Made by a program: the position numbers and the translations under genes | Shown: one piece after another, positions 3,422-34,025 of the stretch | Position numbering within the stretch: position 1 is the first letter of the stretch | How the letters are laid out: each line of letters starts with the position of its first letter | From: Bacillota bacterium | GTDB lineage: Bacteria; Bacillota; DTU065 | Direction: 5' to 3' | Assembly: GCA_018435125.1 (NCBI GenBank) | Contig: JAHDNZ010000087.1 | Location: forward strand, 1 to 34,025 | Length of the DNA: 34,025 nt | Notes under the pieces: generated by a model | Databases searched by the model: none | What the model was told of the DNA's origin: nothing | The model's input: the letters and a program-made list of their open reading frames with translations, nothing else

Positions 3422-3432
3422 CGCCGGTGCCC

Positions 3433-4155
3433 ATGCCCCTCTATCACCCCAACATCAGATTCTCCGACTGCTGGTCGTCAGTGGGAAACATCACGTTCTA
3501 TCACCGGAACGGGAAATGTTATTGGCGTAAAAAGCCGGCACCCATCTTCCCCGGGACCCTGTGGCAGCAGGAACACCAGGCGGTGCATTTTCGCGCCCTG
3601 GAAGCCTGGCGATCACTGGAGCATCCGGTGCAACGGCAATGGTCGGCGTATGCAAGGGATGTCACAGCCCACCGGCCCCCGTTCCTGAAGGAGAACCATA
3701 TCAGCGGATACAACCTGTTTGTGTCGGCTTATCACGGATTTGCCACCCTGGGGCATGAGCATGTGCCGGCACCGGCCAGGTTCGAGGAGTTTCCGCCCTT
3801 TGATGCCGTCTTTGTTTCCGCACAAGTTGCCGGGAATGCCGATTTAGTGTTGCGGTTTTCTCTTTTTGTGGGGGATGCCGGCCACCCGTTGCGGTACCGG
3901 GCCCTGGGGAAGATCCAGCTGGTTGAGGAGGGCAGGGGATGCCATCCCGGGAAGCTGCGCAATTTTCTGTCGGTTGAGGTTTTTCCGGATCCGCAAAATC
4001 CCAGGAACATTTTGTTCATCATCCCGGACTACCGGTCCCTCTGGAACCTGGACCTGCCGGCGTACACCCTGCACATGCGTTACCTGCTCCTTGATACCGT
4101 GACCGGTTACAGGAATTTGCACAAAAAGCTTTCCTGCTCATTTTCTTTGCAGTAA
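3433..4155 (+). CDS. DUF6266-like cassette protein, paralog 1
   Basis: About 240 aa. The ATG at 3433 is preferred; an in-frame GTG at 3427 is possible. The N-terminal half follows a pattern shared with the proteins at 4239 and 6151 and with the partial one at 33498: a glycine-aromatic start (SSVGNITFYHRNGKCYWRKK), a Q/R helix, 'AWRSL...W..YA', then SGYNLFVSAYHGFATLG. The second half is a beta-rich domain without recognised motifs. There is no signal peptide or membrane segment. The pattern resembles DUF6266-type Bacteroidetes proteins, whose function is unknown; a virion or particle component is one possibility given the lysis-like genes downstream. GC content is higher than in the flanking cassettes. 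Confidence 0.65.
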   Translation: MPLYHPNIRFSDCWSSVGNITFYHRNGKCYWRKKPAPIFPGTLWQQEHQAVHFRALEAWRSLEHPVQRQWSAYARDVTAHRPPFLKENHISGYNLFVSAYHGFATLGHEHVPAPARFEEFPPFDAVFVSAQVAGNADLVLRFSLFVGDAGHPLRYRALGKIQLVEEGRGCHPGKLRNFLSVEVFPDPQNPRNILFIIPDYRSLWNLDLPAYTLHMRYLLLDTVTGYRNLHKKLSCSFSLQ

Positions 4156-17782: not shown

Positions 17783-18193
17783 AACCTGAATAATTTAGTG
17801 TTCACCCAAAATTAAAACACTCTCCCCACCCAAACAAACAAATCGGGAAGAAACAACTCCTTGATTATTAAAGTTTTTACGAATTGTCTTTTTTTGCCAC
17901 AACCCACATCCCCAAGAGAAAATCAGATAATTTTTTGGACAAAAATGAGGGGGGGGGGTTATAAGAAAATTGAATTATTTGGGAGTATAGTTTCGTTATA
18001 CAGGTAGTTCTAGGCTAACTCAAAAAAGCTTTGCTTGTTAACAAAAATTAGTCAAAATATATAATAATTGTATTTTTATTACTTCTAAGGATGATTATTC
18101 ATTCAAATACATTTTATGTATCAATATTTGTGATGTTAGGCATGTTTTTAAGTTCTTTGAGATTCTTATTTATTAATAAAACACAAAGAACCA
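17783..18193. other. AT-rich intergenic region with a G10 tract
   Basis: This 410-bp divergent spacer separates the replication operon from the serine recombinase gene. No gene is seen. A run of ten G residues lies at 17949-17958. No TAnnTTTG match is clear upstream of the recombinase. Confidence 0.5.
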
Positions 18194-18793
18194 ATGATTT
18201 ATGGTTACATAAGAGTCAGCAGTGATCAACAGACTGTTGAGAACCAGAGGTTTGAAATAAATAACTTCTGTGCAAAAGAAAGAATGAGTATAGATGGTTG
18301 GATTGAAGAAACAATCAGTGGAACAAAAAATTACAACTCGAGACAACTTGGTAAATTATTGAAAATGACCACTAAGGGAGATTTAATAATTTGTGCTGAA
18401 TTATCCAGGTTGGGTAGAAGTCTTTTTATGATTATGGAAATCCTAAATATCTGTATGAATAAAGAATGTAGGGTGTGGACCATTAAAGACAATTATCGTC
18501 TTGGTGATGACATTCAAAGTAAAGTACTTGCTTTTGCTTTTGGTTTATCGGCTGAAATTGAGAGGAATCTTATTAGCCAAAGAACAAAAGAGGCACTTGC
18601 AAGGAAAAAAGCGGAAGGTGTAATCTTAGGAAGACCTAAAGGTATTAAGAGTCGGCCAGAAAAATATAAACTTTTTGGCAAACAAAAACTAATTACTGAA
18701 CTTTTATTAGCTGATGTTTCAAAGCGAAAGATTGCTGAAATTTGCAAAGTAGATAGAAATACTCTCGCCCGGTTTTTAAAGAATGTTATGTAA
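18194..18793 (+). CDS. Serine recombinase (Pin-like DNA invertase)
   Basis: A 199-aa protein, the normal length of a small serine invertase. It has the YIRVSSDQQ start with the catalytic serine at residue 9, then AELSRLGRS, the E-helix segment LSAEIERNLISQRTKEAL, GVILGRPKG and a C-terminal HTH (SKRKIAEICKVDRNTLARFL). All hallmarks of an active resolvase/invertase are present. The gene ends 10 bp before a 27-bp inverted repeat whose other copy lies inside the methyltransferase gene. It therefore stays outside the invertible segment and is best placed to catalyse its inversion. The gene is AT-rich like the defence genes. Confidence 0.9.
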   Translation: MIYGYIRVSSDQQTVENQRFEINNFCAKERMSIDGWIEETISGTKNYNSRQLGKLLKMTTKGDLIICAELSRLGRSLFMIMEILNICMNKECRVWTIKDNYRLGDDIQSKVLAFAFGLSAEIERNLISQRTKEALARKKAEGVILGRPKGIKSRPEKYKLFGKQKLITELLLADVSKRKIAEICKVDRNTLARFLKNVM

Positions 18794-18804
18794 GTGTAGA
18801 AAAG

Positions 18805-19689
18805 AGCGATTTTGTTCAGCAAGAGCATACGCTGGTACATTTTAATGGGTCGAGTAGTTGGATCATTCTTTCACCCATTGAGCAAAATATAAAAAGCAAG
18901 ATTGAGGCAGTGGGCACTCCTCTCAAAGACTGGGACATCAAAATCAATTATGGAATTAAGACAGGATTGAATGAAGCATTCATAATATCAGGGGCAAAAC
19001 GCAATGAGATATTGGCTAACTGTAAATCAGAAGATGAGAAGCAAAGAACAGATGAACTAATACGACCGATTTTAAGGGGCCGGGACATTAAGCGGTTTGG
19101 GTATGACTGGAAGAATTTGTGGCTCATTAATACCCATAATGGTGTAAAGGGTAAATTTCCCAGGATTGATATTAATGACTATCCAGCTGTTAAAGCTCAT
19201 TTAGATAAATATTGGGCACAACTCTCAAACAGAGAAGATCAAGGTGACACACCTTACAATCTTCGGAACTGCGCTTATTTGGAGGATTTTAGTAAGCCAA
19301 AAGTTATGTGGAAAATCATAGGGTGTAATATTAATTTTTCATTTGATGAAAATGCAATGTTTTGCAATAATGCAGTAAATATTATGACTGGTGAAAGAAG
19401 TCAACTTCTCCAATTTGTGGGACTGATGAACAGTAAATTATTTGATTGGTACTTGAAACTCACAACAGAAGCTGAAGTACAGGGTGGTGGCATTCAATTA
19501 TATGTGACCACATTGGAAAAGACTCTTCTCAAGCTTGATTTTCCCGAAACATTATGTTCAATAGTAGATAACCGTATCAATGACAATCAATCTGACGATA
19601 TAGTAAATGATGCCATTATGGATGCGTATAGTCTTAATAATGAAGAGAAAAAATATATTTTCATGGCATCACAACAAGAAAAGCTGTGA
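18805..19689 (+). CDS. Silent alternative TRD cassette of the methyltransferase
   Basis: The frame is open from within the 27-bp repeat to a TGA at 19687-19689 (294 codons) without a convincing start; the GTG at 18910 lies inside a conserved motif and is unlikely to initiate. The first 95 residues align closely with the expressed methyltransferase (SSWIILSPIEQ, VGTPLKDWDIK, LIRPILRGRDIKR). The next part diverges strongly in sequence and length but keeps landmarks such as KPK(V/I)xWK, as expected for TRDs of different specificity (TaqI-C-like). It is probably not translated in this orientation. After inversion it would replace residues beyond about 833 of the methyltransferase. Confidence 0.8.
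   Translation, partial: SDFVQQEHTLVHFNGSSSWIILSPIEQNIKSKIEAVGTPLKDWDIKINYGIKTGLNEAFIISGAKRNEILANCKSEDEKQRTDELIRPILRGRDIKRFGYDWKNLWLINTHNGVKGKFPRIDINDYPAVKAHLDKYWAQLSNREDQGDTPYNLRNCAYLEDFSKPKVMWKIIGCNINFSFDENAMFCNNAVNIMTGERSQLLQFVGLMNSKLFDWYLKLTTEAEVQGGGIQLYVTTLEKTLLKLDFPETLCSIVDNRINDNQSDDIVNDAIMDAYSLNNEEKKYIFMASQQEKL
19058..19092. repeat. Second inverted repeat, 35 bp (partner 20404-20438)
   Basis: The sequence encoding LIRPILRGRDIK is identical over 35 bp in the two TRD arms, while flanking sequence is clearly diverged. It could be a secondary crossover site or a trace of gene conversion. Confidence 0.65.
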
Positions 19690-19731
19690 ATATTAGTTAT
19701 TAATAGCCTGTGTTGTAGTTGTACAACTGCA

Positions 19732-22700
19732 TCATATATTGTTCTCTATATAAGAGATTTCTTCATTTGAAAAAGCATAGGATGAATAAACAAATTTATC
19801 AATCATTTCTTTAGATATACCAGAAACTAAATTTGTATGTAGTGGGAACGGTACTGGAAATTTGACGAGTGATTGAATATTAAGCATAATATCTCCTGCA
19901 CCAGTGGTATCACTATTCTTGTAGATGAAGTAAGTTCCAACTTTACTGCATAAATAAGAAAGAATAATGTTATTATATTTACCTGCTGAGATAAAACATG
20001 CTGGTGCAGTTAAAAATATTCCTGAATCGACAATAGAAAAAGCCAAATTACGCCCAACTGCTTTCCAACATATTTTTGGCTTAAAAAATAAGTCCCAATA
20101 GCTAATACTATCTTGTGTCTCAAACCATTTATTACTTGTTTTTTTTCTACTTTTTTCCTTATTGCCATTACAGTCCAGAATGTGTTTTCCATTAATAATG
20201 ATTTCTATTCCTTTTTGTTCAAGCTTTTTTTGACAAAATTCTGATAAATAATGATTTGCGACCCATTTATATCCATTAACAATGAGATAACCGTATGCAA
20301 AAGAAAGTAAATAATTCTTTACTGCTGGGAACAATTCTATGTCGTACTTTTTTGATGGGAAGGTTGCAATTAGCCATAGATTAGCCCAGTTATAACCATA
20401 TCTCTTAATGTCCCGGCCCCTTAAAATCGGTCGTATTAAATCCGCCGTTCTTATTCGCTCTTCTTCGGATATACAATTATTCAAAATTTCATTCCGTTTT
20501 TCTCCGGAAATAATGAAAGCATCATTAAGACCAGTTAGTATGCCGCGATAAATTTTAATATCCCAGTCTTTAAGTGGTGTCCCAACGGATTCAATCTTTC
20601 TCTTAATACTCTGTTCTATTGGAGAAAGTACTATCCAACTAGTACTATCTTGAAAACTACATGAAGTATGCTCTTGCTGAACAAAATCGCTCAATTTTTT
20701 TATACATTTTTTATCATTTTTTGTGACAGCACAAATGGTTTTTCCTGCATTATTTTCTTTTGCAAACAGAATAATATTCGTATCCACTGTGGCAGATTCA
20801 AATAACTTAAGGCCTGCAAAATCTACTAACAATTTTGGATTTGTTTTAGTTGCAAGAAATCTTCTTGTTTTTTCACCATATCCGGCACGCATCCATTTAT
20901 TTGACGTAATAAAGCATAGGTGACCTCTGTCCTTTAATAATTGGTATCCTCTTTCATAAAAGAGGCAGTATATATCTCCCGTTCTAGTAAAGGTATCAAA
21001 ACTGAAATTTTCATATAAAGAAGCCAGTTTACCCCCATTATTTTGAAGCTGTACGTACGGTGGATTACCTATCACGATATCAAATTTTTCCGTAACACCA
21101 AACATCCAATATGGATCAAAGAATGATGAGGTTTTATTTTGATCATATGGATTCCATTCAGCTATTTGTTTCGCATCCTGCGGCGCATAAATATTGACTG
21201 AAAGTAATTTTGATAATTTCTGACGTGCTTCTTTATCGTCTTTCCTTAATTGAATCTTCAAAAATGAAGAGTGTGCAGAAAAGTGTTTTTTCCTTATATT
21301 AAGAAGTTCTCTTTTTGTGCTTTCAATTTCTCCGGTCGGATCAGTATATAATCCGCCATATCCTTCTTTCTGTTTGATACTTATCAATGAATTTGCTGCT
21401 ACAAATTTTGTTTCCAGATTTGGGAGAATTGGAATTCCATAGTTATTCGTTTTGTCATGATCGTTCCTTTCGAAATGGCAAATTAATGAAATAAAGAAGC
21501 GCAACTTACTTATTTGTACAGCAATAGTCTGTATATCAGAACCATATATACAATTTTCAATCAATTGTAATTTTATGTCTCCAATATCTCTTTCTTTTTT
21601 ATAGTCCAACTTTTCTAGGAGTTCTACCATTTTATTTAACATCCCCATAGGAAATGCCCCAGAGCCACATGCAGGGTCAAGTATCTTCGCTGTTGAAAGT
21701 TTTCGTGAAATACGGTTGCATTCTTCAGGGTCATTTTGTAATTCTATGGGTAGTTCATCTTGAGTAAACAATAGATTGGTGTACTCTTTATTTCCAAGAT
21801 ATGCCTTTAATGATTCATCAACCATAAATTCAACAATCTCTTTTGGTGTATAGAATGAACCACTTTGATTTCTTGCAGTTTCACGTGTTTCAGGATTATA
21901 TGCTCCTAGTAAGTTCTCGAATACTTTCCCTAAAAGTTCAGGATCTAGTGCTACTTGTACTTCCTTTGGTGAATTCTCCTCAATGGTAAAGTTATAACGT
22001 GACAATATTGGGAGTAACCCTTCTTCAGGTTCAAAAAATAAAATATTAGGAATAAATGCCCTATTTGAAGGTTCCCGGCTAAATCCATCTATATAGTTTT
22101 GAGTAACATTGGAATTATCCTCAATTTCATCGAGACATTCAAACAATCCTCCATTAAGGAAGGGAATTGTAGAAAAGTAATCAATAACTTCTTGATGCGA
22201 TATTTTGAATAAAGATTTTTTAGGGACTTTATTGTCTCTATAGAAAGACTTTATACCGTAATGTGGATTGTTCTCCTCTGGGTTTTCGTTTTTGAATTGC
22301 CTTTTACATCCTTGCTCGTCAATGACAGCCCTATTCAATGTTGCAAAAAATAGGTTCTGAAGAATTGCATTGTAGTAACTACTTGATTCTGAACTCATAG
22401 GTTCAAAATCGTTTATTATGTTGAATAAATCTCTCTTGTCGAATATTTTATCCGGGACAAGATTCTTCTGTTTAATAAACCAAACAAATATTATTCTGGT
22501 AATCAATCTGATAATATTTTGTTCGTTATTTTCTTGGTTAAGTGTAACGTCTTCTGCTGGTCCTTTTGGAAAGAATGAAATTTTGATTGCCCATTCGTAC
22601 CATTTAAAAAGTTCGTTATAAAATTGCTTCGTAAGAGCCTCAACAGAGAAACGACTTAATAAATCATCAAAGGAGTTAAGCAATTTGTTTCCTTCTTGTC

Positions 22701-23166
22701 TTTCCCTTATAGCCCCACGTTCTATTAAAAATTGTGTGGGGGTTTTGATGTGTGCATCTGTTCCTAAAAGGAAAGAGAAACGTCTAGGGTTGGAGTATTG
22801 TCTGACCAAACGATCATTTTCATCAATTGATGCATCAATTTGTAAAAGTGAAAAACGGTAGTTGTTTCTTGAACTATCTGGGACAAAAACCACTAGTGCT
22901 CTATTACATAAACTATTATTGTAAAGAATTTTAAAAGCATCCTTAGAAACACCTATGCGGGCGTCATTATGTGATGAATGTATCATCTCAAACACATCCA
23001 GTTTAAGACTTTTGCAGGTTCCTATTCTGGTAACTCTACTAATATAGCCAGCTGAAAATTCAAATGGTATAGGCGTTTCTTCTGTTTCGAAATCATCAGG
23101 CAGGAAGTCAATTAAGAAGTCATTCAAAAATGAATCTCTGTAATAGGGTTTATTGAATATATTCAT
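19732..23166 (-). CDS. Adenine DNA methyltransferase with C-terminal TRD (Type IIG/ISP/PglX-like)
   Basis: A 1144-aa protein. An N-terminal helical region (1-430) leads to GSFYTPKEIVEFMVDESL, then motif I ILDPACGSGAF (about 493-503) and catalytic motif IV GNPPY (about 699-703), the gamma-class N6-adenine arrangement of Eco57I-type enzymes. Residues from about 850 onward match a TaqI-like specificity domain (SSWIVLSPIEQ, GRDIKRYGYNW, then a variable part with KPKICWKAVG). I see no clear nuclease motif at the N-terminus. Start is 21 bp after the helicase gene. The 27-bp repeat at about residues 825-834 marks the join between fixed and exchangeable parts. It modifies host DNA and probably sets target choice for the operon. 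Confidence 0.85.
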   Translation of the reverse strand: MNIFNKPYYRDSFLNDFLIDFLPDDFETEETPIPFEFSAGYISRVTRIGTCKSLKLDVFEMIHSSHNDARIGVSKDAFKILYNNSLCNRALVVFVPDSSRNNYRFSLLQIDASIDENDRLVRQYSNPRRFSFLLGTDAHIKTPTQFLIERGAIRERQEGNKLLNSFDDLLSRFSVEALTKQFYNELFKWYEWAIKISFFPKGPAEDVTLNQENNEQNIIRLITRIIFVWFIKQKNLVPDKIFDKRDLFNIINDFEPMSSESSSYYNAILQNLFFATLNRAVIDEQGCKRQFKNENPEENNPHYGIKSFYRDNKVPKKSLFKISHQEVIDYFSTIPFLNGGLFECLDEIEDNSNVTQNYIDGFSREPSNRAFIPNILFFEPEEGLLPILSRYNFTIEENSPKEVQVALDPELLGKVFENLLGAYNPETRETARNQSGSFYTPKEIVEFMVDESLKAYLGNKEYTNLLFTQDELPIELQNDPEECNRISRKLSTAKILDPACGSGAFPMGMLNKMVELLEKLDYKKERDIGDIKLQLIENCIYGSDIQTIAVQISKLRFFISLICHFERNDHDKTNNYGIPILPNLETKFVAANSLISIKQKEGYGGLYTDPTGEIESTKRELLNIRKKHFSAHSSFLKIQLRKDDKEARQKLSKLLSVNIYAPQDAKQIAEWNPYDQNKTSSFFDPYWMFGVTEKFDIVIGNPPYVQLQNNGGKLASLYENFSFDTFTRTGDIYCLFYERGYQLLKDRGHLCFITSNKWMRAGYGEKTRRFLATKTNPKLLVDFAGLKLFESATVDTNIILFAKENNAGKTICAVTKNDKKCIKKLSDFVQQEHTSCSFQDSTSWIVLSPIEQSIKRKIESVGTPLKDWDIKIYRGILTGLNDAFIISGEKRNEILNNCISEEERIRTADLIRPILRGRDIKRYGYNWANLWLIATFPSKKYDIELFPAVKNYLLSFAYGYLIVNGYKWVANHYLSEFCQKKLEQKGIEIIINGKHILDCNGNKEKSRKKTSNKWFETQDSISYWDLFFKPKICWKAVGRNLAFSIVDSGIFLTAPACFISAGKYNNIILSYLCSKVGTYFIYKNSDTTGAGDIMLNIQSLVKFPVPFPLHTNLVSGISKEMIDKFVYSSYAFSNEEISYIENNI

Positions 23167-23187: not shown

Positions 23188-26100
23188 CTATAAGGATAAT
23201 TGTGTTTGTCCTTGTTCATCAATAAGAGTATCTTTTGCCACATCTGATTCAATCTCTTCAGACAAAATTAGCAACTCTTTCCCGTAAGAAATATAATCAG
23301 ATCGGTTTAGTATTTTTGTTAGATATTCCGGGTGGATAATGGATTGTAAGGTGTGAAACTCTTCTCTTTTTAATTTGTTTATTTTTCTAAGAGAATAGCC
23401 TGGTAGGCTATCGAGCTCAATAACTTTTATTAAATCATCCAAATAACCTTCGTCACATGCTTTTTCTTCCTTAATTACATTTATCCGGGCAAGTGCCTCC
23501 GTTCTCGATCTCCTTATTTCTACCTCTAATAATTGTTTGAAAAGATCTTCTTCAAGATATTCATATATTGAATAGAAATTACTTGATATATTGTATGCTT
23601 TTTCATCTTCTGTTTCAGGTTCCAATAGATAAAAAGCTTTCTCTGGTGTAAGGGCTTCAATAATTGTTTGGGTGTGACCTAATTTAAAGACGTAGTCGTT
23701 TCCTTTTTTCCCAAATACCAAAATACCTTTTTCATCTTTTTTTGTTATGCGACGTACTTTTGTTCTAAGAGGGATTCTTAATGCCTCTTTCATTTCTGTA
23801 CTATCTCTCATTTGTTGGAGATAGGTCTCATATTTTGTATTCCATGATTCTTGTTCATTTTCTTTAATGATTTTCCTGTATTGCTCGTTAAAGAAACTCT
23901 GTAATTGTTCTTCACTTGTAAGGACGCGTGTGTCTTCTCCCATAATTGATTGAATCATGGCCATTTTCAATGTTGATATCTCACGGCTTCGTGTTTCGGC
24001 TTCTCCAATTGCCGTTGGGAAGTAATTGTAGATATATATATTATTGAAAACCTTCATATTAATTCGATTAATACGTCCTATTCTCTGGATAACTCTTGTG
24101 GGGTTGTATGGTATATCAAAATTAAAAATTGTACCAGCTCTATGAAGGCTATAACCTTCAGAAATGGCATCTGTAGCAATCAAGATTTGGTATTCGTTTT
24201 TTTGCTTGTCTGGCGCATATCCTGCATCGAAGTTAGATCTAATCTTTTCCTTATTCACAGTCGTCGCATCAGATGATGAGTACTTAAATAGAGGTAATTT
24301 TTTCGAATGAAGTTTCTTATACAGGTAGTTAGCTGTATCTGCAAATTCTGTAAAAATAACAATTTTCCTTTTGGGTTCTTTTTTTAGTTGTTCGAAAAGG
24401 ATGGTAATAATTTGCTCAATTTTTGGGTCATACGTGATGAGCTTCCAATCTGCTTCAATCTTTTTTAGAACCTCAATATCGTTCATTAGGTCTCCTAAAA
24501 AGTCTTCATTTAAATACTCCGCATCAATTTCAAACAATCCCCTTTCTTCATAAGCTTTCAGCTCGTCATTCATCCATTCTTCTGGAAACAATTTATCATT
24601 TGATGAACTATTCAAATCATCAATATTTGGCAGATTACCTTTTTTAAAAATGGGAACTGATTGCCTAATTCTCACCCAATTATAAATATTTTCACAATTC
24701 TTACGCATATTCATTACTGAGATACGGAATGCTTCCTGTGAACTCTCAAATCTTCTTACCAGTAAACGGCGCATGAAATCGGATAGGTTAGATTGTGATT
24801 CAGAGAATAGATTATACTCAAAACCTGCCTCTTCAATGTCTGCTCTTAGCTTTTCTTTACATTCTTCTTTTACATAAAGAATTGGTTTGTAACGTGTTCC
24901 TTTAAAATAATAAACTGGTTCCGTTTCTAATAAATCTTCTGTGGCTTTTGGAGAGATTAGATTTAGTGTAGACGTATAAATGTCAGTCAACTTTCCTAAA
25001 GGATACTCCAATAATACAGGATCATTAACATGCGGGAATTCTATTTTCTGTCTTTTCAGATCCTTTTTATAATCAGGGATCTTATCCAGATCAAGGCGTG
25101 ACCGTCTGATAACCAATGGCTGAATTATGTTTCTAATCTGTTTTGATATAATACTTATCTTATTCTTAGCTGTCTCTTCATCAATACTTTTCTCTTTTTG
25201 GGCTTTTCTAAGTGCCTTATATTCATTAATTAGTTGTCCGAATGCCGCATTTAAATTTTCTACAGTTTTTAAAGTGGATTTTGTTGGAATTTGGAATAGT
25301 TTCAGCATAGAGAAAATATCTTCCGGCTTATTGTTAAACGGGGTAGCCGTCAGAAGCATTACTTTATTGTTTTGACATAATTCATGCAAAAGGGCATAAT
25401 CTTGTGTGTATTCGTTCCGGTAGTTGTGAGCCTCATCTACAATAATCAACCATTTTTCACCTTTGTGGGAAATTAGATTATGGTGTTCAAGTGCTTTATC
25501 TATTTTACCACTACTAAAGACCGTCGCATTGAAATTAAACTCTACCCGGTATTCATCCCATTGGTTTGTCAAGTGTGGGGGTGCAATAATTATTGTTCTA
25601 ATATTCAGATTGTTGGCTACAGTCGCACTGATAATACTTTTACCCAGTCCTACCACATCAGATATAATTACACCGCTGTGCCTGTCAATTGTTTGAATGG
25701 CCATTCGTACAGCGTCCTCTTGATACTTAAGGTTGAAGAATCTTCCATTGGTAATATCGTGTGGTGTACGAATTCTATATGAGGTGTCTAATGTAAAAAA
25801 TTCGTGCAGTACTCTCAGATAGATAAGTTTAGGTGATACTATCCGGTCAATCCAAATCTTTTGAATCACGTTGTTTTCAAATTCTCCAATATGATCTTGA
25901 TCTGCAATTATTACTGCTCTATCCCACATAGTATTGAAAATGGACAACCCTTCTTCAACTTCAGGCGTGCTATCGAAACGAACATTTATTTCGTTCTGTC
26001 CAGTTAATCCATTGTGTGTGAGATTACTTGAGCCTGTTATTAAGGTCCCCAATTGAGTTCCACCTTCATTCAACTCATCTTTCAATGAGAATATGTACAT

Positions 26101-26514
26101 TTTTGCATGACAAGGTTCCTTTGTTTTTCTGACTTCCAGGGTTCCGTCAACAATTTTTTGGTAATAAATTGAAAAAGCCCTCTTATGTTCCTCTGTATCA
26201 AAATAATTTGTAGTGTTGCATAAATTTACTAATGAATCAAAAAAATCTCGTTTCAAAATCTGTTTTGATGTTCTTCTCCTCTTGTCCCATTCATTAATTT
26301 CAGTAGTCTTGTTTAATAATTCTCTTTCCATCTCAAGACCAACAAGTATTCTGACATGGATATCGGAAATATTATTATAAATTTCTGCTAATCCACTAAA
26401 ATAGAAGTAGCCTACTATCGCGTCAAAAGCTTTTGTTTTGGTAGGTAGTATCCGGTTTATTACTGAAGCAAGGGATCCTTCCCCTTTTTGATTTACGATA
26501 AAATGTTGACTCAT
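23188..26514 (-). CDS. PLD-nuclease/SNF2-type helicase fusion
   Basis: A 1108-aa protein. The N-terminal domain (1-200) is phospholipase-D-like with one HxK motif (H136, K138 in CHAKMY) and GSSNLT at 161-166, as in PLD nucleases such as those of Type II/III enzymes. The SF2 motor follows: GLGKS at 289-293, DEAH at 360-363, TATP at 389-392, and motif VI RVIQRIGRINR at about 808-818. Active-site residues look intact. The C-terminal 290 residues are helical. Its place directly before the methyltransferase gene (21-bp gap) suggests a restriction subunit that translocates on DNA and cleaves. It differs from DISARM DrmD in carrying its own PLD domain. Confidence 0.88.
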   Translation of the reverse strand: MSQHFIVNQKGEGSLASVINRILPTKTKAFDAIVGYFYFSGLAEIYNNISDIHVRILVGLEMERELLNKTTEINEWDKRRRTSKQILKRDFFDSLVNLCNTTNYFDTEEHKRAFSIYYQKIVDGTLEVRKTKEPCHAKMYIFSLKDELNEGGTQLGTLITGSSNLTHNGLTGQNEINVRFDSTPEVEEGLSIFNTMWDRAVIIADQDHIGEFENNVIQKIWIDRIVSPKLIYLRVLHEFFTLDTSYRIRTPHDITNGRFFNLKYQEDAVRMAIQTIDRHSGVIISDVVGLGKSIISATVANNLNIRTIIIAPPHLTNQWDEYRVEFNFNATVFSSGKIDKALEHHNLISHKGEKWLIIVDEAHNYRNEYTQDYALLHELCQNNKVMLLTATPFNNKPEDIFSMLKLFQIPTKSTLKTVENLNAAFGQLINEYKALRKAQKEKSIDEETAKNKISIISKQIRNIIQPLVIRRSRLDLDKIPDYKKDLKRQKIEFPHVNDPVLLEYPLGKLTDIYTSTLNLISPKATEDLLETEPVYYFKGTRYKPILYVKEECKEKLRADIEEAGFEYNLFSESQSNLSDFMRRLLVRRFESSQEAFRISVMNMRKNCENIYNWVRIRQSVPIFKKGNLPNIDDLNSSSNDKLFPEEWMNDELKAYEERGLFEIDAEYLNEDFLGDLMNDIEVLKKIEADWKLITYDPKIEQIITILFEQLKKEPKRKIVIFTEFADTANYLYKKLHSKKLPLFKYSSSDATTVNKEKIRSNFDAGYAPDKQKNEYQILIATDAISEGYSLHRAGTIFNFDIPYNPTRVIQRIGRINRINMKVFNNIYIYNYFPTAIGEAETRSREISTLKMAMIQSIMGEDTRVLTSEEQLQSFFNEQYRKIIKENEQESWNTKYETYLQQMRDSTEMKEALRIPLRTKVRRITKKDEKGILVFGKKGNDYVFKLGHTQTIIEALTPEKAFYLLEPETEDEKAYNISSNFYSIYEYLEEDLFKQLLEVEIRRSRTEALARINVIKEEKACDEGYLDDLIKVIELDSLPGYSLRKINKLKREEFHTLQSIIHPEYLTKILNRSDYISYGKELLILSEEIESDVAKDTLIDEQGQTQLSL

Positions 26515-26569: not shown

Positions 26570-27478
26570 CTACTCCTCCCCAAAATAATCGTTGTCTATC
26601 TTCTTTATCTCATAGACATTGGACGTTGAAACCCCAATGTTGTGATCGATCATCAATTGAGCGAGCCTTTCCCCGTCAATCAGCACAATCTTGGTTTCGT
26701 TTTTTGGTGAATAGTCTCTGGCTTCCTTCGTGAACGTGGAGCTGGTTATGAAAATCCCCTTTTTGGCACCCTGACCGGCCAGTGCGCCAACAAACTTCTG
26801 AATCTCAGGCCTTCCCACAGAATTGCCGATCTGCCAACGTTTCGCCTGGATGTAAATGATGTCCAGGCCGAGTTTATCTTCCTTGATGGTTCCGTCAATT
26901 CCCTCGTCTCCACTTTTGCCGATCGCTCTTCCCGCGTCTTTTATGGAACCTCCGTAGCCCATTTTCACCAACAACTCCACCACCAGCCTCTCAAAAAAAG
27001 AAGGTGGCAAGCCGATTACTTTATTCAGCAAGTCCTGGGCAAGCGATTTTCTTAAACGTTGGTAAGCACCCTCCAGGCTTTCTTCCGGAGTTTCCTTGGT
27101 GATCTCTTCCACCTGAACGTCCGTATTGTCTTCCGGTTTCAGGTTGATGAACTCTAAGAAGGAGGTATATTGCTTCAGGAAGGCAATATTTATAAACTTG
27201 GGGTTTTGTTTAAGCACGCCGAGGCCCTCTTCGGTAATGACACTGATGCCCCGTTTTGGAGACTCGATTAACCCGGCCTTCTTCAAATACGTCCGAGCCC
27301 AAGCCACCCGGTTATCAAAGATCCGCTGCGTGCCACTAGGCAACAACTCTTTGCGTTCATCTTCACTCACCTTAAAATCTTCCGCCAATTCTTCCACCAA
27401 ATCCCTAAAAACATGTTCTCTTTTGTCCGCTAACTTTTCAAGCAACGGAAGCATCAATGATTGATAATCAGGTATCAT
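26570..27478 (-). CDS. mrr: Mrr-type restriction endonuclease
   Basis: A 302-aa protein of full family length. Residues 1-90 form the Mrr N-terminal winged helix (SGTQRIFDNRVAWARTYLKKAGL). Residues 155-285 form the Mrr catalytic domain: FFERLVVELLVKMGYG, then D-containing GDEGIDG (about 190-196) and YIQAKRW (about 208-214), giving the D...QxK site. It then has FVGALAGQGAKKGIFITSS. Mrr proteins cut modified or foreign DNA. It precedes the helicase by 55 bp on the same strand. Its base composition is visibly richer in G and C than that of the helicase and methyltransferase, so it may have joined the operon separately. Confidence 0.88.
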   Translation of the reverse strand: MIPDYQSLMLPLLEKLADKREHVFRDLVEELAEDFKVSEDERKELLPSGTQRIFDNRVAWARTYLKKAGLIESPKRGISVITEEGLGVLKQNPKFINIAFLKQYTSFLEFINLKPEDNTDVQVEEITKETPEESLEGAYQRLRKSLAQDLLNKVIGLPPSFFERLVVELLVKMGYGGSIKDAGRAIGKSGDEGIDGTIKEDKLGLDIIYIQAKRWQIGNSVGRPEIQKFVGALAGQGAKKGIFITSSTFTKEARDYSPKNETKIVLIDGERLAQLMIDHNIGVSTSNVYEIKKIDNDYFGEE

Positions 27479-33442: not shown

Positions 33443-33497
33443 TAGCTACACACAAACAAACCTTGTGTTTAAGACTTGTAACTTGTAACCCGTGCCC

Positions 33498-34025
33498 ATG
33501 CCCATCTATCCACCCAATATCAGATTCTCCGACTGCTGGTCATCAGTGGGAGGGATCACGTTCTACCACAGGAATGGGAAGTGCTACTGGCGGAGCAAGC
33601 CGGCCCCGGTGTTTCCCGGGACCCTGGAGCAGCTGGATCACCAGTCGGTGCACCTTCGCGCCCTGGCTGCCTGGCGGACACTGGACCACCAAGTGCAATT
33701 GCAATGGGCGGGGTATGCCGGGGAGGTGGCGGCACACCGGCCGCCGTTCCTGCATGAGAACCACATCAGCGGGTACAACCTGTTCGTGTCGGCATACCAC
33801 GGGTTCGCGACCCTGGGGCAGGAGCATGTACCGGATCCGGCACGGTTCGAGGCGTTTCCTCCGTTTTATGCGGCATTCGTTTCCGCACAGGTTTCCGGGA
33901 ATGCCGATATGGTGCTCCGGTTTTCGCTTTTCGTGGGTGGCACCGAAGATCCGTTGAGGTACCGGACCTTGGGAAAGATCCAGCTGGTTGCCCCCGGAAG
34001 GGGCTGCCATCCCGGGAAGTTGCGG
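33498..34025 (+). CDS. DUF6266-like cassette protein, paralog 4 (runs off the window)
   Basis: The frame is open from the ATG at 33498 to the window end (176 codons); an in-frame GTG at 33492 is possible. The protein closely matches the one at 3433 (FSDCWSSVGGITFYHRNGK, HRPPFLHENHISGYNLFVSAYHG, PLRYRTLGKIQLV). Differences are mostly conservative, so both copies are probably under selection and not simple duplicates. It has the same promoter and 33-bp leader, which implies that another cassette of the same type begins here. The downstream genes are not visible. Confidence 0.7.
   Translation, partial: MPIYPPNIRFSDCWSSVGGITFYHRNGKCYWRSKPAPVFPGTLEQLDHQSVHLRALAAWRTLDHQVQLQWAGYAGEVAAHRPPFLHENHISGYNLFVSAYHGFATLGQEHVPDPARFEAFPPFYAAFVSAQVSGNADMVLRFSLFVGGTEDPLRYRTLGKIQLVAPGRGCHPGKLR

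Follow-up and report, generated by a model that had tools for sequence, protein, structure and literature searches.

How many specificities can be drawn from a methyltransferase gene that faces an inverted, start-less copy of its own recognition domain, with a recombinase gene alongside? The question is raised by a locus in a 34,025-nucleotide stretch of DNA (hereafter the window: positions 1 to 34,025 of contig JAHDNZ010000087.1, assembly GCA_018435125.1, labelled as a Bacillota bacterium of the DTU065 lineage), which carries an adenine methyltransferase gene, a silent cassette and a recombinase gene (Table 1). A preliminary description proposed a two-state inversion that exchanges the target recognition domain of a defence methyltransferase. 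The exchange itself is strongly favoured by comparison among relatives; the number of states needs correction, and by curated cut-offs the enzyme does not belong to the bacteriophage exclusion (BREX) or defence island system associated with restriction-modification (DISARM) type. On sequence comparison, the locus is very probably a recombinase-driven specificity shuffler with at least two paired sites, A and C.

A repeat search of the window recovered the exact 27-bp inverted repeat described earlier, site A, of which one copy lies in reverse complement inside the methyltransferase gene; allowing up to three mismatches, the 2.55-Mb assembly contains no further copy. The start-less cassette does run in frame out of the other copy, its frame staying open over 295 codons with no N-terminus of its own, and both copies of A are read in one frame (SDFVQQEH). 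Absent from the earlier description is site C, a further exact inverted repeat, 35 bp long, which lies within the A-flanked segment and within the recognition domain, and between A and C the expressed and silent copies are divergent. Inversion of 18804-20692 in silico changes the methyltransferase open reading frame (ORF) from 1144 to 1119 amino acids (aa) with the frame unbroken, giving the full-length enzyme with a new C-terminus that had been foreseen. With the reference counted, the A and C pairs, inverted singly or together, allow four isoforms rather than two, all of full length. The repeats link a gene with a start-less partial copy and keep it in frame after inversion, the arrangement of a gene-altering programmed inversion.

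Table 1. Features of the invertible locus and its neighbours, with the predicted isoforms (positions in the window)
Feature	Position	Strand	Remarks
Mpi-family serine recombinase, 199 aa	18194..18793	+	NF009949, PF00239 Resolvase
Silent start-less cassette, alternative C-terminal recognition domain	18802..19689	+	295 codons, TaqI_C, PF12950
Adenine methyltransferase, 1144 aa, C-terminal recognition domain	19732..23166	-	Eco57I + TaqI_C (Pfam)
Site A, silent copy	18804..18830	+	27 bp, exact inverted repeat
Site A, expressed copy, in methyltransferase gene	20666..20692	-	exact inverted repeat
Site C, silent copy	19058..19092	+	35 bp, exact inverted repeat, common motif
Site C, expressed copy	20404..20438	-	exact inverted repeat, common motif
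Site B, silent copy	19280..19300	+	motif intact: TGGAGGATTTTAGTAAGCCAA
Site B, expressed copy	20076..20096	-	decayed: GGGACTTATTTTTTAAGCCAA; identity with nearest relative L006 stops there
PLD-SNF2 helicase	23188..26514	-	PLDc_2, SNF2, Helicase_C (Pfam)
Mrr-like restriction endonuclease	26570..27478	-	Mrr_cat, Mrr_N (Pfam); upstream of helicase
Isoform, reference			IYRG+ATFPS, 1144 aa
Isoform after A inversion			INYG+NTHNG, 1119 aa
Isoform after C inversion			IYRG+NTHNG, 1119 aa
Isoform after both inversions			INYG+ATFPS, 1144 aa

The recombinase is an Mpi-family serine invertase by the curated cut-off, scoring 335.3 bits against NF009949 where the equivalog threshold is 272; the Pin-like identity first given to it is rejected on this score. 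Its frame is intact, with a stop at 18793 that does fall 10 bp before the first repeat copy, it aligns with solved DNA invertase and resolvase structures, and it is the sole Mpi-type copy in the assembly. Catalysis of the inversion by this protein is predicted. A run of ten G residues at 17949-17958, which lies between genes and precedes the start of the recombinase by about 236 bp, is a possible slippage tract.

The sites can be followed among relatives. A single scan of species genomes, 84,980 in number, yielded 80 loci, to which a single viral scan added five; 79 loci, the window included, were analysed (L-numbers below). A recombinase or a silent cassette is present in 44 of the 79 and both in 37, and the module is common to about 40 related loci, usually in the order helicase, methyltransferase, inverted silent cassette, recombinase. 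Synonymous codon identity of the expressed with the silent copy was followed through the 38 loci that have the two (39 sequence pairs). It is about 0.95 at A, then 0.3-0.4, about 0.9 at C and again high at B, a third site. Between different loci it is mostly 0.2-0.6, with single site codons nearly fixed (S826 0.97, D827 1.00, R912 0.92, Y1023 1.00). The three sites align without gaps (A, TGAGCGnTTTtgTncagCA; C, CGACCgATTtTncGnGGCa; B, gGGAcGATTTTtntAAGCc) and share a DNA motif, roughly GATTTTnnnnRGC, that is set in different codon contexts and, at C, in a different reading frame. In 60-66 of 76 sequences, a weight matrix built on one site had its best match at another of the three. The window has five occurrences of GATTTTnnnnRGC, namely both A, both C and the silent B. 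The assembly has five occurrences of GASCGATTTTNNNNRGC, of which the A and C copies account for four, and the fifth (C6:31825) was rejected as an extra site and put down to chance, since it lies inside rpsL. Serine recombinases require matching central bases. These differ among A, C and B, so that unlike sites should not recombine with one another.

The motif goes with the module. In 19 control loci, which lack both the recombinase and the cassette and whose downstream sequence exceeds 1.5 kb, CGA at C is found in none, as against 38 of the 44 loci with recombinase or cassette, and GATTTT at B in none, as against 30 of 44; the controls encode IKP or LKP where module loci have IRP. Fisher p-values for these contrasts are optimistic because of shared ancestry, and at B the protein motif itself differs in the controls.

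The distribution of alleles points to exchange between the two copies. Segment 1, from A to C, exists as two alleles, IYRGxLTG and INYGIKTG, with three fixed residue differences in the motif, and segment 2, from C to B, which lies in the TaqI_C specificity domain, as four unrelated types. Within a locus, the segment-1 alleles of the two copies are unlike in 29 of 34 cases (permutation mean 17, p about 1e-4), and the segment-2 types in all 32 (mean 20.8, maximum 29 in 20,000 permutations). Where both allele pairs are present, each of the four combinations turns up in the expressed copy (7, 5, 5 and 2 loci). Two close relatives, L023 and L026, share 98.5% identity along 7.4 kb; between them segment 1 has been traded between the expressed and silent positions, an exact A-C exchange at 99% identity, while segment 2 is unexchanged (99-100% identity) and segment 3 is unrelated. 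In L014 (P. multiformis) and L086 the inter-site region, 88.8-91.9% identical, lies in opposite orientations. Recombination in the relatives is well supported by these sequence comparisons.

Several points weigh against a specificity shuffler driven by the recombinase. The exchange and the opposite orientations were found between close relatives (L023/L026 and L014/L086), not within the window's own population; for that population we infer switching and the presence of both orientations, as we do the action of the recombinase on the A and C sites. The turnover of segment 3 exceeds what pairwise swapping explains. In several loci homogenisation of the sequence to the right of A extends beyond 100 bp, which is more than a site-specific crossover needs, and the compared loci are related, their counts being only partly independent.

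The homogenised stretches bring in a different source of exchange, homologous recombination or gene conversion between the inverted copies, with the recombinase as a bystander. Inverted identity spanning 100-315 bp in L012, L022, L028, L030, L071 and L088, and its gradual fading to the right of A, are what such a process would leave. It accounts poorly for a single DNA motif at three sites in unlike codon contexts, for the missing C and B signatures in recombinase-less relatives, for the confinement of identity in the window to the 27 and 35 bp in which the motif lies, and for the joint occurrence of recombinase and cassette, and as the agent of exchange it is quite improbable. Some homologous recombination or conversion may smooth the sequence beside A within a locus shuffled by the recombinase.

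How the shuffler would work can be set out from the sites. The Mpi-family invertase would recognise a motif of about 20 bp (core GATTTTnnnnRGC) in the codons of the recognition domain and in the inverted start-less copy. Recombination of the A pair would swap the whole C-terminus, that of the C pair the distal part only, and that of the B pair, present in many relatives, only the last ~110 aa. In the window, where the A and C pairs are intact and B is decayed on one side, the predicted output is four full-length isoforms of 1144 or 1119 aa. The isoforms, we infer, read different DNA sequences, and the adjacent helicase probably takes its target from the methyltransferase, so that a switch would alter the methylated and the restricted sequence together.

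The switch might act on some other property than the target sequence, such as on/off activity or escape from an anti-restriction protein. The truncated expressed copies of four relatives (see below) behave as off states, and the segment-1 alleles differ at just the three fixed residues of one motif; the four unrelated segment-2 types lie inside the TaqI_C specificity domain, and every isoform of the window is full length, which makes this explanation unlikely.

The decay of the expressed B site suggests another possibility, that the locus is locked: a decayed former switch with the silent cassette as a relic and a single form in the organism. Truncated expressed copies that inversion would restore, in L021, L022, L028 and L056, are in keeping with loss of switching. 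Against a relic stand the silent frame open for 295 codons, the intact recombinase frame, and the exact A and C repeats of 27 and 35 bp with diverged sequence between the sites, and a locked locus is rated a slim prospect. In the nearest relative, L006, the methyltransferase body is ~81% identical to that of the window and segment 3 ~21% identical, the DNA alignment stopping at site B. In L006 and L007, the two nearest relatives, the sequence stops 364 and 391 bp past the gene, and there is no cassette within that span.

Taken more broadly, and with about an even chance of being right, the module may be a modular specificity generator: three shared-motif sites with pair-specific central bases, three independently assorting sub-domains and up to eight specificities from two copies, or more with several silent cassettes. 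The DNA site would be strong enough to have left its mark on the protein, with K changed to R at site C, and the module would spread between phyla with its PLD-SNF2 partner and keep two different alleles per locus. The crossover points would be DNA motifs concealed within codons where sub-domains meet. The model of the expressed protein (mean predicted local distance difference test score, pLDDT, 79) places site A in a helix (825-832), site C at the border of a low-confidence loop (914-927) and site B at a helix (1024-1028). The model of the cassette (mean pLDDT 77, low over the first ~30 residues) resembles the C-terminal part of M.BseCI and CamA with low TM-scores, and the sequence profile concurs.

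The methyltransferase has its recognition domain on the same chain (Eco57I and TaqI_C), as in Type IIG enzymes, and PADLOC Type IIG profiles match it; there is no separate HsdS subunit of the kind found in a Type I shufflon. Membership of the BREX or DISARM systems is rejected, the PglX score being 112 bits against a curated cut-off of 500 and the DrmD score 160 against 610. Its nearest solved relatives are CamA, M.BseCI and BrxX. By Pfam there is no nuclease domain in the chain, and the N-terminal ~430 aa have no domain match; the neighbouring PLD-SNF2 helicase is more likely to supply restriction. The helicase, whose DrmD and HKD+Snf2 profile scores fall below curated cut-offs or come from a profile without one, is probably the restriction partner, and a similar helicase precedes the methyltransferase in most relatives. 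The Mrr-like endonuclease, which has a homologue near one relative only (L025), is probably accessory.

By record title, the relatives come from Bacteroidota, Akkermansia, Planctomycetes, Myxococcales, Chloroflexi, Spirochaetes, Fibrobacter, Bacillota, Alphaproteobacteria and Gastranaerophilales, a spread of about ten phyla by label, in which many records are metagenome-assembled genomes and single assignments may be wrong. Cultured carriers include Prevotella denticola, P. multiformis and Rikenella microfusus, and this occurrence makes the module testable. At strict cut-offs no further copy was found in 5 family or order genomes and 398 phylum genomes, and no match in phage records spans most of the methyltransferase. 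Plasmid matches are all below 60% identity; in two plasmid records inspected (Parabacteroides distasonis and Bacteroides finegoldii) no annotated invertase lies beside the methyltransferase, and the second of these carries a pair of site-specific integrases in the neighbourhood.

Some relatives depart from the usual form. In L021, L022, L028 and L056 the expressed methyltransferase is truncated at about 890-940 aa, and inversion in silico gives about 1100 aa; the truncated copies may be off states. L030, L067 and L021 each have at least two silent partner copies or sites, and larger repertoires are possible there. In L010, L015, L016, L017, L053, L072 and L080 the site-C CGA signature is present and the contig ends in or just past the methyltransferase, as is expected if assemblies break at invertible repeats.

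The window contig may itself be misbinned, since its genes look Bacteroidota-like (BACON and Fib_succ_major domains) and another contig of the bin (C6, L095) has the gene order rpoC, small L7Ae-like protein, rpsL. This order is typical of Bacillota. A related integrase occurs in ten plasmid records, every one of them from Bacteroides, Parabacteroides or Phocaeicola. The assembly-wide counts of uniqueness are valid for the assembly as given. Similar ORFs lie near both contig ends, at 3427-4155 and 33492-34025 (MPMPLYHPNIRFSDCWSSVG and MPMPIYPPNIRFSDCWSSVG), the first without a Pfam match.

Among known systems, the HsdS shufflon of Bacteroides fragilis, with four repeat sets, eight combinations and a tyrosine integrase (PMC3090145), is like the locus in having several inverted-repeat sets in recognition domains and in drawing combinatorial specificity from expressed and silent copies. 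It differs in its separate HsdS subunit and tyrosine integrase; in the window the methyltransferase is a single chain, accompanied by an Mpi-family serine invertase and a PLD-SNF2 helicase. The recombinase shares its family with Mpi/FinA, the master invertase of B. fragilis, which acts on many dispersed regions including polysaccharide promoters (PMC5903667, PMC3090145); unlike it, the recombinase of the window adjoins presumed sites in coding sequence, and its motif is confined to one locus. The closest solved relatives of the methyltransferase by sequence and fold, CamA, M.BseCI and BrxX/PglX, show 15-17% identity in the fold alignments. Type IIG switching in Campylobacter jejuni works by a homopolymeric tract. 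The C. jejuni enzyme is single-chain and phase-variable, with expression turned on or off (PMC4889913), whereas the system of the window would swap specificity. As in gene-altering programmed inversions, a gene here is accompanied by an inverted start-less partial copy. Milman et al. 2023 are said to include Type II restriction-modification among the targets of programmed inversion, possibly with the methyltransferase family of the window. The contents of that study aside, a literature search for a published account of such a shuffler found HsdS and on/off cases only; given multi-site shuffling in HsdS and this possible inclusion, the novelty is limited to that of a variant. The locus resembles the HsdS shufflon, but its methyltransferase is a single chain of Type IIG/PglX-like kind and its invertase a serine enzyme. 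Its crossover map marks exchangeable units in recognition domains like those of CamA, BseCI and PglX, and lets the reading of bases by units be asked directly. If the proposal is true, combinatorial switching of specificity reaches single-chain adenine methyltransferases, beyond the multi-subunit Type I systems.
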